Shown: piece after piece, positions 35,314 to 40,577 of the stretch
Numbering within the stretch: the first letter of the stretch is position 1
Layout: every line of letters begins with the position of its first letter
IMG/VR virus record: IMGVR_UViG_3300028393_001381
Coordinates: 1-40,577 of that record
Length of the DNA: 40,577 bases
Reading direction: 5' to 3' (one strand)
Source: a virus
Notes under the pieces: model-generated
What the model saw: the letters and a program-made list of their open reading frames with translations, nothing else
What the model was told of the DNA's origin: nothing
Databases searched by the model: none
Translations under genes and position numbers: made by a program

Positions 35314-35922
35314 TTACATGGTAGGACCGTTTCCACTCTTGAATCCTATTGATCCGCCTTCTGCTTCAATACGTGCAATAACATCTTCAAACAAGATAGG
35401 CGCAAAGTCAGGAGTTTGTTCCACGCAAACACAATGGTAGCGTGTATCAATTTCATCACTGTATAAGATTTCTCCAGTTCTAGCATCAACTCCACGAGCT
35501 TTTTTCACACGATTTGCGTGAGTATGTCCGTGAATGTTGGTACCAAAACGACCCATTGAATCCGAATGTAACGGAATATGACTAAGAATCATACCATTCA
35601 TAACGTGATAAGCTCTAAGCTCTCTAAAGTACAAGCGATACTCGTCGTCTCTGAAGATATCGTGGTTACCACGGATTAAAACTTTGTCACCGTTTAAGCG
35701 GCTCATGATTTTTAACGCTTTACGATTGATAACAACGTCACCCAAATGGTACACCTTGTCAGTGGGCTTTACCCGTTCGTTCCACGCCTTAACCATTGCT
35801 TCGTCCATTTCCTCAGCTGAGTCCCATGGGCGAAGTTTTGTAACACCATCGTTACGTGTGAAGCGACAGACGCCGGTGTGTCCAAAATGCGTGTCGCTGA
35901 CTAAAAATACACTAGGCATCAT
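35314..35922 (-). CDS. Calcineurin-like metallophosphoesterase
   Basis: The metal-binding motifs appear in order: SDTHFGH (Asp10, His12, His15), HLGDVV, RGNHD, a middle HIPLH and HGHTH. This is the complete signature of the metallophosphoesterase fold with two metal ions. These enzymes cleave phosphomono- or diesters such as cyclic nucleotides or capped ends. Two adjacent ATGs (35922 and 35919) follow an AGGAGGG site; the second has the better spacing. It is transcribed from the perfect sigma-70 promoter at 35948-35976 and ends at the terminator. Confidence 0.85.
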   Translation of the reverse strand: MMPSVFLVSDTHFGHTGVCRFTRNDGVTKLRPWDSAEEMDEAMVKAWNERVKPTDKVYHLGDVVINRKALKIMSRLNGDKVLIRGNHDIFRDDEYRLYFRELRAYHVMNGMILSHIPLHSDSMGRFGTNIHGHTHANRVKKARGVDARTGEILYSDEIDTRYHCVCVEQTPDFAPILFEDVIARIEAEGGSIGFKSGNGPTM

Positions 35923-35947
35923 GCCCTCCTTTCTTGTTTATGTATGT

Positions 35948-35976
35948 ATTATACAACCAAAAGGAGAGTTTGTCAA
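35948..35976 (-). promoter_or_regulatory. Consensus sigma-70 promoter
   Basis: On the minus strand TTGACA (35971-35976), 17 bp, then TATAAT (35948-35953): a perfect match in both hexamers and spacing. It directs the metallophosphoesterase gene. Promoters this strong are typical of phage early genes read by the host polymerase. Confidence 0.85.
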
Positions 35977-35989
35977 CTGTTCGTTTTGG

Positions 35990-36214
35990 CTATACTACTC
36001 TGCAATATCGTGTTTGAAAAGAAAATTGATCCTTTTCGTATAGTGTATCACTAGCGTGATCACCGTAACGAACTGTATTACCTTCAATTTCACGAATAGT
36101 TACAACTCGATCTGTGCCATCTGCTTGTGCCCATTCCTGCCCTACAGCAAGTTCATTTACTGGATAGATATATCCGCACATTAGGTTACGACCGTTTACG
36201 TTTTCAACTCTCAT
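35990..36214 (-). CDS. Small phage hypothetical protein (74 aa)
   Basis: The ATG at 36214 with a GGAGAG ribosome site is preferred over an upstream TTG. The protein is short and beta-rich (GYIYPVNEL, then GQEWAQADGTDRVVTIREIEGNTVRYG), consistent with a small barrel or SH3-like fold of unknown role. Its start overlaps the stop of the P-loop kinase-like gene by 1 nt. No catalytic motif is visible. Confidence 0.7.
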   Translation of the reverse strand: MRVENVNGRNLMCGYIYPVNELAVGQEWAQADGTDRVVTIREIEGNTVRYGDHASDTLYEKDQFSFQTRYCRVV

Positions 36215-36675
36215 TATACTCTCCAAATTTCCTTGAAGCCTTCCGCATCGGTAGGGTATTCAAAGTTATCAATCATACCTTGTACAACTTCCCAAGGAAT
36301 TGGTTGGTTCACACGCAATGCCAAACGTTCCTTTAATACTGATATCTCAGGTGTTGGAAACACCACAGCAATATGATAGTAGTCTGGAAGCATATTGAAC
36401 TTGCGAGCACGACTTTTAACAGTGGTACTGGTTTGATCCCAAAGTACATCACGCCCGGCTGTTCTAGCGGCCACAACTTCTTGCGCCATTAGTTCAACTG
36501 CTGTGGGCATGTATTCTTCGAACACTTCTCTATATGTCTTGCCTTGCTGTTTGGCATACTCATGCACATGATGATCAGTGCTTACATACTCCATGCCTTC
36601 GGTCCATACTTGACTTCTAAGCCAAGTGCTTTTGCCTGCGGCAGGTACTCCAATTAATTGATAACACTTTGGCAT
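36214..36675 (-). CDS. P-loop kinase-like protein (polynucleotide-kinase type)
   Basis: IGVPAAGKST (8-17) is a Walker A loop, followed by STDHH (about residue 32) at the position of the conserved Asp, and DVLWDQTSTT as the second strand ending. HIAVVFPTP and ALRVNQPIP lie where the lid and adenine-binding parts are. The order matches the kinase domain of T4-type polynucleotide kinases and related small-molecule kinases. The phosphatase half of the T4 enzyme is absent. With the neighbouring phosphatases this forms a phosphate-handling group of early genes. Confidence 0.75.
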   Translation of the reverse strand: MPKCYQLIGVPAAGKSTWLRSQVWTEGMEYVSTDHHVHEYAKQQGKTYREVFEEYMPTAVELMAQEVVAARTAGRDVLWDQTSTTVKSRARKFNMLPDYYHIAVVFPTPEISVLKERLALRVNQPIPWEVVQGMIDNFEYPTDAEGFKEIWRV

Positions 36676-36842
36676 TAATGTACCGCTTCCTTAACATCCA
36701 CATCACATTCAACTATCCAATTGTCAAACTGGGTAAACTTATTTACTTCAACACCAAGTCCAACTGCTTCGTTGACAAAATGCTTTAGTAGCGCATTGTA
36801 CAACTCATCAGGCATGGTGTCTTTGTCAAATTTGATCTTCAT
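36675..36842 (-). CDS. Small hypothetical protein (55 aa)
   Basis: The frame runs from the ATG at 36842 (MKIKFDKDTMPDEL) to TAA at 36675, which overlaps the ATG of the P-loop gene by 1 nt; the upstream gene's stop also touches its start. It is a compact acidic protein with an amphipathic centre (YNALLKHFVNEAV). The exact packing between two genes makes it a convincing coding gene. No function is recognised. Confidence 0.65.
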   Translation of the reverse strand: MKIKFDKDTMPDELYNALLKHFVNEAVGLGVEVNKFTQFDNWIVECDVDVKEAVH

Positions 36843-37318
36843 TATATATCTCCGTCCTGGCGCATGAACTCATCTCCTGCAAGAGGTACTGGCTTTTCAT
36901 CTGGATCATATGTCCAACCCAAATGCTTCATCATGCGATGCTTGACCAACAGGTTAGGCGCACGGAAACGCTCTGTATCATTGAAGCCCATCATGACTCC
37001 AACCTCACAAACCGCACCCGATCTGCAGATGCCAGCAAAACAATGAACAACCACATTCATGCGATTTTCCAATGCGTGTTGCAGTAGTCGAACCAGCTCA
37101 GCGGCCTGCTCATGACTGCAACGCATGGCTTCATCCAATGCAAAGTCTTTTTCTTCGATGTCCAAGAACTCAAAGTTGTGACGCTCTTTGAATTGGTGCT
37201 TGGCTTCAGGACGCCAGCTTGCAGGATCAACAATGCTGATCAACATACTGTTTGGTCCAGCATCGTGGTGAAATCCTGTTGGGATATCAGCGGCGGCTAC
37301 ATTTTCAATCCATGGCAT
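36842..37318 (-). CDS. Protein-tyrosine / dual-specificity phosphatase-like protein
   Basis: VVHCFAGICRSGAV holds the Cys-x5-Arg active site (Cys93, Arg99) of Cys-dependent phosphatases, preceded by the strand VVV. An upstream acidic segment (LDIEEKDFALDEA) may give the general acid. Members of this fold remove phosphate from Tyr/Ser/Thr, RNA 5' ends or inositol phosphates. In this position, among other phosphate enzymes, an RNA or nucleotide substrate is possible. It overlaps the upstream gene by 14 nt. Confidence 0.8.
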   Translation of the reverse strand: MPWIENVAAADIPTGFHHDAGPNSMLISIVDPASWRPEAKHQFKERHNFEFLDIEEKDFALDEAMRCSHEQAAELVRLLQHALENRMNVVVHCFAGICRSGAVCEVGVMMGFNDTERFRAPNLLVKHRMMKHLGWTYDPDEKPVPLAGDEFMRQDGDI

Positions 37319-37595
37319 TTTGTTCTTCCTTTACGGGTTGGTTAGGAATGTTTGCGTCACCGTTCTCAACATTGGCAAACACAAAGCCTAATCCTAACAA
37401 TGTTTTCATTTCAAATTCTGTACAGTTGCCGCGAAAGATAAAAATTCTACGAGTTAAATCATCCTTGGCATAGTAAATTCTATAACTTACTCGAGGCACG
37501 TTTAACTTGTCGGCTAACATTGGCATAGTAACTTCGTCACTCCAATCTTCGGAGACAGAGAGCCTAGTTTGCTCATAGTAAAAATCTTTCATCAT
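37305..37595 (-). CDS. Phage hypothetical protein (96 aa)
   Basis: This soluble protein starts MMKDFYYEQTRLSV, has a beta-rich middle (RVSYRIYYAKDDLTRRIFIF) and an acidic, Asn-rich tail. The start overlaps the upstream stop by 4 nt. I do not recognise a family. It is one of a run of small genes transcribed from the sigma-70 promoter at 38377-38405. Confidence 0.65.
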   Translation of the reverse strand: MMKDFYYEQTRLSVSEDWSDEVTMPMLADKLNVPRVSYRIYYAKDDLTRRIFIFRGNCTEFEMKTLLGLGFVFANVENGDANIPNQPVKEEQNAMD

Positions 37596-37822
37596 ACTCG
37601 TTCTTTCTTAACACGGCCGATGCGGCTGGCTTTGTTCCAATCGTATGCAACACCGTCTGGGCACTTGCCTTCTGCAACAGTGTCAACACCAAATCGACCT
37701 ACTACTTCAAAATCTGAACCTTTGATTGTTACAAAGATTCCAACTGCTTTGGCAAATGCCATTGCTTCGTTCAATGTGATGAACCGTTCTAGTTCTTTAT
37801 CATTACAAATTACTTTATACAT
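37592..37822 (-). CDS. Phage hypothetical protein (76 aa)
   Basis: This is a small alpha/beta protein (MYKVICNDKELERF, then EAMAFAKAVGIFVTIKGSDFEVVGRFG) with a basic C-terminal tail. It overlaps the SWIM-finger gene by 8 nt (ATGTATAA) and the next gene by 4 nt. It looks like a compact phage early protein of unknown function; no catalytic residues stand out. Confidence 0.65.
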   Translation of the reverse strand: MYKVICNDKELERFITLNEAMAFAKAVGIFVTIKGSDFEVVGRFGVDTVAEGKCPDGVAYDWNKASRIGRVKKERV

Positions 37823-38150
37823 TCTTTTCCAATTCTTTTATATGTTTACAATCTCCACGGAATGTAAAACCTGGACATGTGCAAGTTTTTTCTTCCGGGT
37901 TCACAAAATACTTATTACCCTTGCTACCAAGAATAATAATCAAATCACTTTTAACTTCTGCATCAAAAGGATTACTTTTTAATTCTTCAAATTTACGTCC
38001 ACGCTTGTCGATGCGTATTGGTTTTTTGAAATAAAACGGTTCGCCTTTACCAAACTTAATATAGGCAATCATTTTATCGCCATCCAAAAGATAAGTGTGG
38101 TTCGCTTGTAGGCTACCTTCCCAAACTGTAGTTTCTTTTACTGCTTGCAT
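37815..38150 (-). CDS. SWIM zinc-finger protein (111 aa)
   Basis: The C-terminus has CTCPGFTFRGDCKH, that is Cys90-x-Cys92, Cys101-x-His103, the SWIM zinc-finger spacing. SWIM fingers bind DNA or proteins and occur in recombination and RNA-polymerase-associated proteins. The N-terminal part is a beta-rich region (YIKFGKGEPFYFKKPIRI). It overlaps the 65-residue gene upstream by 1 nt. A regulatory or nucleic-acid role is likely, but the partner is unknown. Confidence 0.75.
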   Translation of the reverse strand: MQAVKETTVWEGSLQANHTYLLDGDKMIAYIKFGKGEPFYFKKPIRIDKRGRKFEELKSNPFDAEVKSDLIIILGSKGNKYFVNPEEKTCTCPGFTFRGDCKHIKELEKNV

Positions 38151-38376: not shown

Positions 38377-38405
38377 ATTATACAGTCAAAAAGAAGTCCT
38401 GTCAA
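38377..38405 (-). promoter_or_regulatory. Consensus sigma-70 promoter
   Basis: On the minus strand TTGACA (38400-38405), 17 bp, then TATAAT (38377-38382), again a perfect match. The TTGAC and TATAATA surroundings resemble the promoter at 35948. It drives the genes from 38347 downward. Confidence 0.85.
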
Positions 38406-38411
38406 CTGTGC

Positions 38412-38566
38412 GTCAACAGGACTGGTGTTGTTATAAAACAACGAATTAGTGGGGAGAGATTGTTGTGTCGGGAACTCTCCCCAAAACCCCGGATACACAG
38501 CCCATCCCACATTTCGTGTATCGCGGATGCTGGGTTCTCAGCCTAGGCTAAGGTGGGCCAGCAGTT
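38412..38566. other. Structured non-coding region next to the Ro60-like gene
   Basis: Between the end of the Ro60-like gene and the promoter at 38377 there is no credible gene. The stretch holds several perfect stems: GTTGTT/AACAAC near 38427-38442, GGGGAGAG/CTCTCCCC (38451-38458 with 38475-38482), GATACAC/GTGTATC (about 38492-38523) and GCTGG/CCAGC around AGCCTAGGCT. The density suggests a folded RNA, transcribed perhaps as the 3' part of the Ro60-like transcript. The strand is not determined. Simple terminators are a possible alternative but no long T run follows. Confidence 0.4.
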
Positions 38567-38568
38567 AC

Positions 38569-39981
38569 TTACAGAGCGTAACGATCACTCATTACAGTCT
38601 TAAGCATGATGCCTTCTGGAGTGAACTGATCCAAGTCAGCGGCTAGCAAGCTAGTCATTATACTTGGGCTAAATCCACTTACCAATGCGACACCACTCTT
38701 GTCAGCCTTAACAGGCACGTTGTCTGAACTGTTTAGGTTCCAGAAAACAATCTGTGGCATGCTGTAGCCAGCGGCTTCGAACTTGCGTTCGATCATTTCC
38801 ATGGCGCTGTCGTCGTGCTTGGCGCATTGGTTGAACTGCATGTCACTCAAGATCAGCAACATGGCTGGCATGTCGCTGGCTGGTACTGAACCCTTAACCG
38901 CAACGTCTAGGATCTTGTCCATAGCCGCATTTAGGTTAGTGCTCATGTCCCAATCACTCTTGCTCATTTGAGCAACCTTGTCAACAATATTACCCTTTAG
39001 AGTAACAAGTTGTGGCTTGCTAGAGAAAGTCAAGAATGTGTCCTTGAACACACCCTTGTTCTTGTCTGCTAGGTACAAGCCCAAGCTGATTGAAACATCC
39101 ATGCAAGTCACATTAGTGTTCTTTCCTGCTGGGCAACTCATAGAACCACTAACGTCTACGATTGGCATGATGCTGGCATCTCCAACGTAGTTTGGCAAAG
39201 CGTCCCACTGTGCCACAATGTGGTCAGTAGCTGTCTTGTCCAAACTTGAACGGTAAGAACCGATAACACCCTTCAGCACATCATGTGGAAAGATTGCAGA
39301 GGCGTTAACCTTAACAGTCTTGTCACCACTTACCAACTTGGCCACATACTCAGCAAATGCTGGTGTGTGACGGCTGAATGCCTTCTTGTAGTTGCGCGAA
39401 GCAACACTTGGCACGTGGCTGAAGTTGATGTTGTCCCAATCTCCTGCACACATTTGGGTTTCAACAACTGTGGTCATTGTTACCAATGACTTGCGGTACT
39501 GCTTTGGAGACATTCCGAAGAATGCTCGTACTTCAGCCGCAATCTTGCCCTTACGAGGAGTCCACTTTGCGGCCAGTCCGTTCTTAGCACGTAGGGCATC
39601 GCCCAACATGGTATAAGCGGCTGACTTCAGAACTGGGTCTTGGAACACAAAGATGTCATCCCAACGACCAACTTCTGGGATCTTCTTTAGAAGAGCCAAA
39701 GCGGCGTCTGGGTCACGCTTTTCTAGATGTACTAGAATGTCGCGGAACAGTTGACGTTCACCTGCACCACCGCGCACATCACGTGCCCATTGTGCGATGC
39801 GTAGTGCTACGTCTGAGTTTTCCACGTAAGCCGCGGTGAACTCACGAGTGATGTCCTTACCACGGCTTGCGCCGATGTTGTAAAACAAGTCAACACAAGC
39901 TGATGCTGTGGACTTACGTGCCTTCATACCGTTTGCGGTACGGGCTTCTTGATTTGCTACTGCGTTTACAAATGCGTTCAT
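38569..39981 (-). CDS. Ro60/TROVE-like (DUF2828-like) protein with von Willebrand A domain
   Basis: The 470-residue protein has an N-terminal helical-repeat half with RDVRGGAGERQLFRDIL and VGRWDDIFVF, segments typical of TROVE/DUF2828 proteins, then MTTVVETQMCAGDW and NFSHVPSVAS. The C-terminal half is a von Willebrand A fold starting MPIVDVSGSMS, the DxSxS metal-binding site, with later ILSDMQF. In bacteria the Ro60 orthologue Rsr binds Y RNA and works with RNases in RNA quality control. Its codons look more GC-rich than those of the island. It has a TTAACA-N17-CATAAT promoter upstream. A phage RNA-remodelling role is inferred. Confidence 0.75.
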   Translation of the reverse strand: MNAFVNAVANQEARTANGMKARKSTASACVDLFYNIGASRGKDITREFTAAYVENSDVALRIAQWARDVRGGAGERQLFRDILVHLEKRDPDAALALLKKIPEVGRWDDIFVFQDPVLKSAAYTMLGDALRAKNGLAAKWTPRKGKIAAEVRAFFGMSPKQYRKSLVTMTTVVETQMCAGDWDNINFSHVPSVASRNYKKAFSRHTPAFAEYVAKLVSGDKTVKVNASAIFPHDVLKGVIGSYRSSLDKTATDHIVAQWDALPNYVGDASIMPIVDVSGSMSCPAGKNTNVTCMDVSISLGLYLADKNKGVFKDTFLTFSSKPQLVTLKGNIVDKVAQMSKSDWDMSTNLNAAMDKILDVAVKGSVPASDMPAMLLILSDMQFNQCAKHDDSAMEMIERKFEAAGYSMPQIVFWNLNSSDNVPVKADKSGVALVSGFSPSIMTSLLAADLDQFTPEGIMLKTVMSDRYAL

Positions 39982-40577
39982 TTTGATTACCTTTACAGAA
40001 TGTATTTTTTTCAGATTATGGTTGAAATTAAAGTTGCTGTTAACATTCTAAAACTTTAACAGGATGATCGTGCCAATTTGTTTATTTTCTGGTCTGGCCA
40101 ATTATAGCACCCAGACCCTATCAACATTCATGTTGACTATCCCAACTTGTGTCTGCGTGGGAGACATATCCGGTACTTTGCCGGTCTATCTATTCCTTGG
40201 GCGTCTATTGCTAGAACAGTATTGCTACTGTGTTTCCCAACCACCTTCTATAGCAGTAATTTAGGTTTTAAATTGCTGTAGTCATCCTATGACTAACAGG
40301 ATCGTTTTTGACTGCTTTTATTTTACACAGGCCATCACTCTGTGCTCGTTAGTCTTGTTTCAATAGTTGGCTTCAACGCTCGGTGGTTTTACGCACTCTG
40401 CTCCACCAACTACCACAGTGTCTAACAATCCATAGTATATGAATGTTGCTGAACCGATCCTAAAACTTTTTAGCTTGCATTATTGCTTGCTATGTATCTA
40501 TTATAATGTCTTTGTTGTGTGTTGTCACGACATTTTGGTTAAACAGGATACATTTTTCTTCATTTGCAGTGAAATTG
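39982..40577. other. Gene-free region rich in stem-loops
   Basis: No convincing coding frame is present in these 596 nt. Perfect stems are seen at 40091-40117 (GGTCTGG/CCAGACC), 40121-40136 (TCAACA/TGTTGA), 40216-40231 (ACAGTA/TACTGT), 40284-40302 (ATCCT/AGGAT), 40326-40344 (CACAG/CTGTG) and 40365-40411 (AGTT/AACT enclosing GGTGG/CCACC). AACAGGAT occurs three times (near 40058, 40295 and 40545, the last as AACAGGATA). It could encode one or more small RNAs, or be an untranslated leader of the Ro60-like gene. The strand is unknown. Confidence 0.35.
40015..40043 (-). promoter_or_regulatory. Sigma-70-like promoter of the Ro60-like gene
   Basis: On the minus strand TTAACA (40038-40043), a 17-bp spacer and CATAAT (40015-40020) give one mismatch in each hexamer. 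It lies 34 nt before the start of the Ro60-like gene at 39981. Spacing equals that of the other sigma-70-type promoters in the window. Confidence 0.55.

Follow-up and report, generated by a model that had tools for sequence, protein, structure and literature searches.

The stretch of DNA analysed here, called the window, comprises 40,577 nt of the IMG/VR virus record IMGVR_UViG_3300028393_001381 and carries on its minus strand a gene for a Ro60-like protein with its stop codon at 38569 (Table 1). An earlier note on this DNA had described four perfect stems, with no gene, directly after this stop codon (38412-38566, the 3' flank of the gene) and had proposed that they belong to a Y-like RNA. 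The stems are present, an ORF check found no convincing gene in the flank and only short ORFs on the opposite strand, and the 175 nt of 38392-38566 fold at -67.9 kcal/mol (z = -4.57), a stability reached by none of 200 shuffled sequences. Two features had been missed, a kissing helix between two of the hairpins and a -35 box within a terminator hairpin. The terminator hairpin (38423-38395) starts just outside the range of the earlier note and overlaps the consensus promoter of the next gene, whose -35 box it contains; a further 6-bp hairpin lies near 38442-38427 (minus) between hairpin S3 and the terminator. Downstream, the genes on the minus strand of 35314-38150 include those for a SWIM zinc-finger protein, a dual-specificity-type phosphatase, an AAA_33 kinase, and a metallophosphoesterase, which perhaps have RNA-repair functions.

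Table 1. Features of the window around the Ro60-like gene.
Feature	Position	Strand	Evidence
Consensus promoter TTGACA-17-TATAAT of next gene, overlapping the terminator	38377..38405	-	12/12 consensus matches
Intrinsic terminator, 12-bp hairpin, for the Ro-gene transcript	38395..38423	-	Scan: 1 found vs 0.1 in shuffles
Element A, kissing-loop small RNA of ~114 nt: hairpins S1, S2, S3 and kissing helix CCCAC x GUGGG	38450..38563	-	63-sequence alignment, pair counts, model R1, homologues
Hairpin S3: 38483-38475 x 38458-38450, variable stem, conserved loop UCCYGACACAA	38450..38483	-	Stems, alignment, pair counts
Hairpin S2: CCG(c)GAUACAC 38526-38516 x GUGUAUCCGG 38498-38489	38489..38526	-	Stems, alignment, pair counts
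Hairpin S1: UGCUGG 38563-38558 x CCAGCA 38533-38528, inner AGCCUAGGCU hairpin	38528..38563	-	Stem inspection, pair counts
Ro60-like protein, 470 aa (DUF2828 + DUF7788, phrog_850)	38569..39981	-	Pfam/PHROGs, AF2 model, Foldseek PDB
U3, short Y-like module, stem AGAATGT/ACATTCT, CAGCAA, ~53 nt, just before Ro start	39992..40052	-	Model R2, 61.5 bits; in alignment A2
U2, long Y-like module, stem AGGATGA/TCATCCT, CAGCAA	40061..40288	-	Module scripts
U1, Y-like module, stem AGGATCG/CGATCCT, CAGCAA	40298..40461	-	Module scripts, unbiased scan
Fourth module, incomplete at the window end	40540..40577	-	Weak R2 match, E 0.0076, 5' truncated

The name Ro60-like, given to the gene in the earlier note, is borne out by the predicted fold of its product. 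In Pfam the protein matches DUF2828 and DUF7788, with TROVE not among the matches, in PHROGs it falls into an 'RNA-binding protein' family, and a profile search of the PDB finds no Ro60 chain. An AlphaFold2 model built from 26 sequences is of moderate confidence (pLDDT 67.1), and Foldseek ranks 1-5 in the PDB are all TROVE/Ro60 structures (E 2.4e-8 to 4.9e-5): 9kop and 9l5y (Thermus phage phiLo), 2nvo (Deinococcus Rsr), 1yvr (Ro autoantigen), and 9nen (human). The gene is thus predicted from this model to encode a Ro60 fold, a helical ring plus vWFA domain. Relatives of the protein occur in 677 phage records. Ro60-like proteins have been noted in jumbo phages, where the available text of the reports demonstrates no RNA partner (PMC7765460, PMC7824862). 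For Listeria phage CKA15, one report describes an Rsr homologue detected in virions and proposes three highly transcribed regions, located no more than 2 kb upstream of its gene, as possible Y RNAs (PMC12282133).

The stems in the 3' flank form element A, a row of hairpins with a kissing contact between the S1 loop (38557-38553, 5' half) and the S2 loop (38510-38506, 3' half), and its structure is established by comparison. Covariation in homologous loci, which the earlier note had proposed as a check, proved strong. In alignment A1, which holds 63 of 90 candidate rows after exclusion of near-duplicates and doubtful or cut ends (e.g., L209, L258, L216, L298, L197, L294) and has manually chosen ends for L103, L260, L265, and L277, 92.5% of the pair cells are paired, compared with 75.0% in shuffles. 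Two-sided changes number 324 (111 ± 9 shuffled, 30-76 in slid versions), and part of the excess over the slid versions is expected because the same alignment served to derive the structure and to count the changes. The covariation score is 0.466, against 0.165 when shuffled. The kissing helix is paired in 98.4% of cells across the 63 homologues, and its pair 10-64 is paired in 63/63 by five different types (AU, GC, CG, GU, UA). S3 is only 77.6% paired, its MAFFT alignment being imperfect, and the S2 loop contains a conserved GAAA and AUGGGCUG. The earlier note held that the strand could not be fixed by eye; it is minus, the strand of the Ro gene, since homologues closely follow the Ro-like stop codon and the compensatory changes agree with this orientation. 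An Rfam search of the window returned nothing at threshold, and no Rfam family was found to match element A; two further element A queries of INPHARED gave no match, and the sole match of the window query there, an ssRNA phage at E 0.04, was taken as chance. A literature search, for which subscription literature including the main YrlA papers was mostly outside the scope, retrieved no description of element A or of the CAGCAA modules discussed below. Element A is apparently a new class of structured RNA, undescribed so far; phage YrlA-like RNAs may have been described before.

Among 80 related loci from IMG/VR that served as comparison set, 19 carry, like the window, a near-identical element A after the Ro-like stop codon, and most of the others have a terminator, a tRNA, or other sequence directly at this place. 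In several loci (L116, L117, L127, L154, and others) another long structured-looking sequence (ACCCGG..GGACAG..GGGGCUC..) replaces it, for which Rfam gave no match in the loci scanned. A scan with an exact pattern yielded 32 contigs, in 29 of which element A lies directly behind a Ro-like gene (in one with ~190 nt inserted); two of the remaining three are too close to the contig end, and in the third (L107) it follows a phosphoesterase gene and Ro is absent. A looser pattern (109 contigs) and a second Ro search added diverged copies, some of them after tRNAs or a phosphoesterase gene and again without Ro. Altogether, 81 of 142 matches, in which contigs may count repeatedly, are at most 500 nt from a Ro-like gene, 57 have none, and 4 are too near the end. 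Phage copies directly follow stop codons or, often, stand 1-3 nt after tRNA genes, they precede terminators, and they are also common inside long tRNA arrays; the element is single-copy, with one copy found in 9 of 18 viral records and two copies in none. A different stretch, starting GAACAGCGGATAAGTTACATTATCC and common to L076 (1304-1450) and L139 (after a tRNA), occupies differing sites in tRNA-rich regions and is possibly another mobile RNA.

Element A is likewise present in bacteria. Inspection of 58 genome matches left 18 loci in which the structure is complete (15 different sequences plus L273, L305, and L315) and two partial ones (L300, L301), the other 38 being dropped as chance coding matches. 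The hosts are proteobacterial genomes and one Verrucomicrobia bin, with copies in 8 of 58 genomes of the genus Caballeronia and in 1 of 147 of an order sample centred on Sphingomonas, and a search of ten whole genomes found a single copy in nine and two copies in one. It is also found on five plasmids, four of which were re-scored by model R1, and single copies follow a phage integrase (L245) and a DUF6538 protein with a weak integrase-domain match (L273). Since jumbo phages, plasmids, and proteobacterial genomes all carry the element, a function common to mobile elements is likely. A -10-like hexamer has its first base 12-13 nt before S1 in 9 of the 18 copies from bacteria or prophages, and none of the 18 has one at 16-20 nt; S1 is therefore probably the start of the RNA. 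The boxes are weak in several bacterial copies, and 66 phage copies showed no clear enrichment at the same spot. Right behind the Caballeronia copies, intrinsic terminators are apparent by eye. To judge from this anatomy, bacterial element A resembles a stand-alone sRNA gene.

Another kind of RNA candidate lies on the other side of the Ro60-like gene. The long non-coding region before its start codon contains three tandem modules (minus, 39992-40461) built of a 7-bp stem, exactly 3 nt, the hexamer CAGCAA, a variable insert, the second strand of the stem, and GU. Candidates for the Y-like RNA expected beside the gene lie upstream of it and not in the stretch for which the expectation had been voiced. 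In an unbiased scan with U1, all 113 matches have a Ro-like gene downstream, and with U3, 92 of 106 matches end 21-29 nt before one. The other 14 lie mostly between tRNA genes. In ten of these 14 records a Ro-like protein is encoded at another place (11 of 15 with the control L093 counted in); the remaining four, which have none, are 20-40 kb fragments. A strict finder with control hexamers was preferred because a looser script, with matches in 107 of 111 upstream regions (none in L015, L142, L191, L192), gives a few spurious ones. It found 93 CAGCAA modules in 35/35 environmental Ro loci, where other hexamers gave 0-4, and 14 modules in 6/9 loci of isolated Ro phages, where nine other hexamers gave 0, but only one module among 46 loci with element A and no Ro. 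Model R2 has 78 matches in 39 sources, nearly all of them Ro-phage loci, and two weak ones among 59 loci with element A only. These two are at L200 (13358-13470) and L216 (6215-6283), element A loci in 14- and 20-kb records without a Ro-like gene. Among large records, modules occur in 11/11 with Ro and in 0/5 without, and the surroundings of Ro in KVP40 and Erwinia phage Kaldavass yielded none. Modules do stand beside the Ro-like gene of Felixounavirus tootiki, a phage of E. coli K-12, and Listeria phage LMTA-57, presumably a relative of CKA15, has three of them upstream of its gene together with a ROOL-like RNA. In alignment A2, consisting of the window's module and 59 picked ones (157 were found, and 151 pass an AG-start filter), the stem is paired in 420/420 cells, with 55 two-sided changes compared to 9.7 in shuffles, in rows pre-selected by a script that requires a pairable stem. 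From the co-occurrence of modules and Ro we infer that the modules are Y-like RNAs that bind Ro, and stem plus CAGCAA would be the protein-binding part.

The inserts appear to imitate tRNAs. Hairpins of anticodon type (YUNNNRN loop, stem of at least 4) occur in 56 of 140 distinct short interiors, against 6.5 ± 2.4 and at most 13 in shuffled ones, the commonest mimic anticodons being UUU, GUU, GUA, UCU, and UGU; U3 of the window does not clearly pass this test. Many long modules, such as those at L177 2752-2874 and L113 2094-2214, contain a permuted tRNA-like fold in which an anticodon arm is followed by a T arm, a closed acceptor stem, and a D arm. Such folds were also read by eye in Felix O1-type phages, mycobacteriophage JoeDirt, and Cronobacter phage S13, and were not recognised in the window's own modules. 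Sub-threshold matches to Rfam YrlA fall on or beside long modules in JoeDirt, KP2025, L113, L177, L357, and L378, with a best score of 40.1 bits compared to a gathering score of 69. ARAGORN calls a tRNA-Arg inside the module at L404 8045-8158, and a 'tRNA-OTHER' is annotated next to or over the S13 module (L192 5154-5288). Since gene finders call some modules tRNAs, some phage 'tRNAs' may be Y-like RNAs. In one report, the tRNA-like domain of YrlA is suggested to act as a competitive inhibitor of an anticodon nuclease (PMC7790460), and the inserts are plausibly decoys for such nucleases or for other tRNA-binding enzymes.

The reading that we consider probable is that element A (minus 38563-38450) is one copy of a widespread, apparently undescribed, trans-acting sRNA of mobile genetic elements and not the RNA of Ro60, whose partner would most likely be the tandem CAGCAA modules upstream. 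The proposal that it is a dedicated Y-like RNA bound by the Ro60-like protein draws on its place in those 29 of 32 contigs and on the fact that this place is kept even where the Ro proteins are only 63-69% identical to that of the window. However, in the 47 records where element A lies apart from Ro, several being 100-183 kb long, a query that also recovers the window's own Ro60-like gene detected no Ro-like gene, and a test of 36 other Ro loci with model R1 gave no copy of element A; element A is independent of Ro and is therefore not a dedicated Ro ligand. Nor does it have the parts of a Y RNA: its three serial hairpins with a kissing helix include no stem joining the 5' and 3' ends and no CAGCAA motif, ARAGORN predicts no tRNA gene in the window, and the search with the YrlA model that the earlier note had recommended gave, like that for tRNA, no match in the region at E ≤ 10. 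With the CAGCAA modules as the better candidate, a Y-like element A is very unlikely. Within one phage lineage element A is a close neighbour of Ro, and a link between the two is possible there.

As the phage copies lie in 3' UTRs or behind tRNAs, right after stop codons or 1-3 nt after tRNA genes and before terminators, a 3'-UTR element that acts in cis, as a block to exonucleases or a guide for the processing of mRNAs and tRNA precursors, would also explain them. This is nevertheless unlikely on balance, because the bacterial copies resemble genes that have a -10 box and a terminator of their own and lack a partner upstream, and because the conservation of the loops exceeds the needs of a simple roadblock. 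Put elements, which are of the antitermination or RNA polymerase-binding type, are the model for a different cis role that fits the position of the window's copy before an intrinsic terminator and the frequent occurrence inside long tRNA arrays; the apparent terminator that immediately follows the Caballeronia copies and the lack of matches to Rfam antitermination families make it highly improbable. Least probable of all is a self-cleaving ribozyme or riboswitch, which conserved unpaired core nucleotides and the kissing loop might suggest: Rfam ribozyme and riboswitch families give no match, the downstream gene is not constant, and the likely start site in bacteria is the 5' end of element A itself.

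Under the preferred reading of a trans-acting sRNA, two hairpins lock through the loop-loop kissing helix and the third displays its conserved loop; the RNA would be stable and would offer the conserved loops of S2 and S3 to a factor of the host or the phage. The trans role is suggested by the anatomy of the bacterial genes, where element A would be transcribed from its own promoter; in the window it would be transcribed together with the Ro gene, as the last part of an RNA that stops at the 38395 terminator. More tentatively, and with somewhat less than even confidence, many large phages would possess a complete Ro RNP system in their tRNA arrays, composed of a Ro60-fold protein and tandem or scattered CAGCAA RNAs, each of which shows another part of a tRNA (the anticodon arm of a tRNA for codons starting with A or U, or a whole permuted tRNA) and serves as decoy for or sensor of anticodon nucleases. 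The plan of these RNAs would recur in Dictyostelium class I RNAs, and an unrelated mobile kissing-loop sRNA of phages, plasmids, and proteobacteria would exist alongside. The modules would supply phage Ro60 proteins with concrete candidate RNA ligands, some of them in a phage of E. coli K-12, and their mimicry of anticodon arms ties Y RNAs to tRNA-targeting defence.

Several known RNA systems resemble parts of this locus. The stable RNAs C and D of T4 (rnaC, rnaD) are likewise small RNAs beside a phage tRNA cluster, but comparison by eye showed no similarity to element A, and model R2 has no match in the T4 stretch L266 at E ≤ 10. The ornate RNAs GOLLD and ROOL are also structured phage RNAs within tRNA arrays, but they are far larger and element A matches neither; GOLLD itself is found at L186 25-488 and a sub-threshold ROOL at L473 1470-2021, a few kb from Ro-like genes and CAGCAA modules. 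Element A is unlike YrlA (RF02553), whereas the long modules are, like it, closed by a stem and contain a permuted tRNA-like fold with T, acceptor, and D arms, although all modules score below the gathering threshold and many are short, with an anticodon arm only. The short modules are reminiscent of the class I RNAs of Dictyostelium (RF01414), which are eukaryotic and for which an RRM protein is reported as the one direct binder demonstrated (PMC7919456). Two short modules reach 32.5 and 29.4 bits with the class I model and the window 18.5, below the gathering score of 41.5, and the likeness is one of plan. This plan comprises a length of ~60 nt, a short covarying stem that joins the ends, an AG start and a CUGU end, and CAGCAA beside the stem with a variable rest (PMC7919456), all of which the short modules have in common with class I RNAs.
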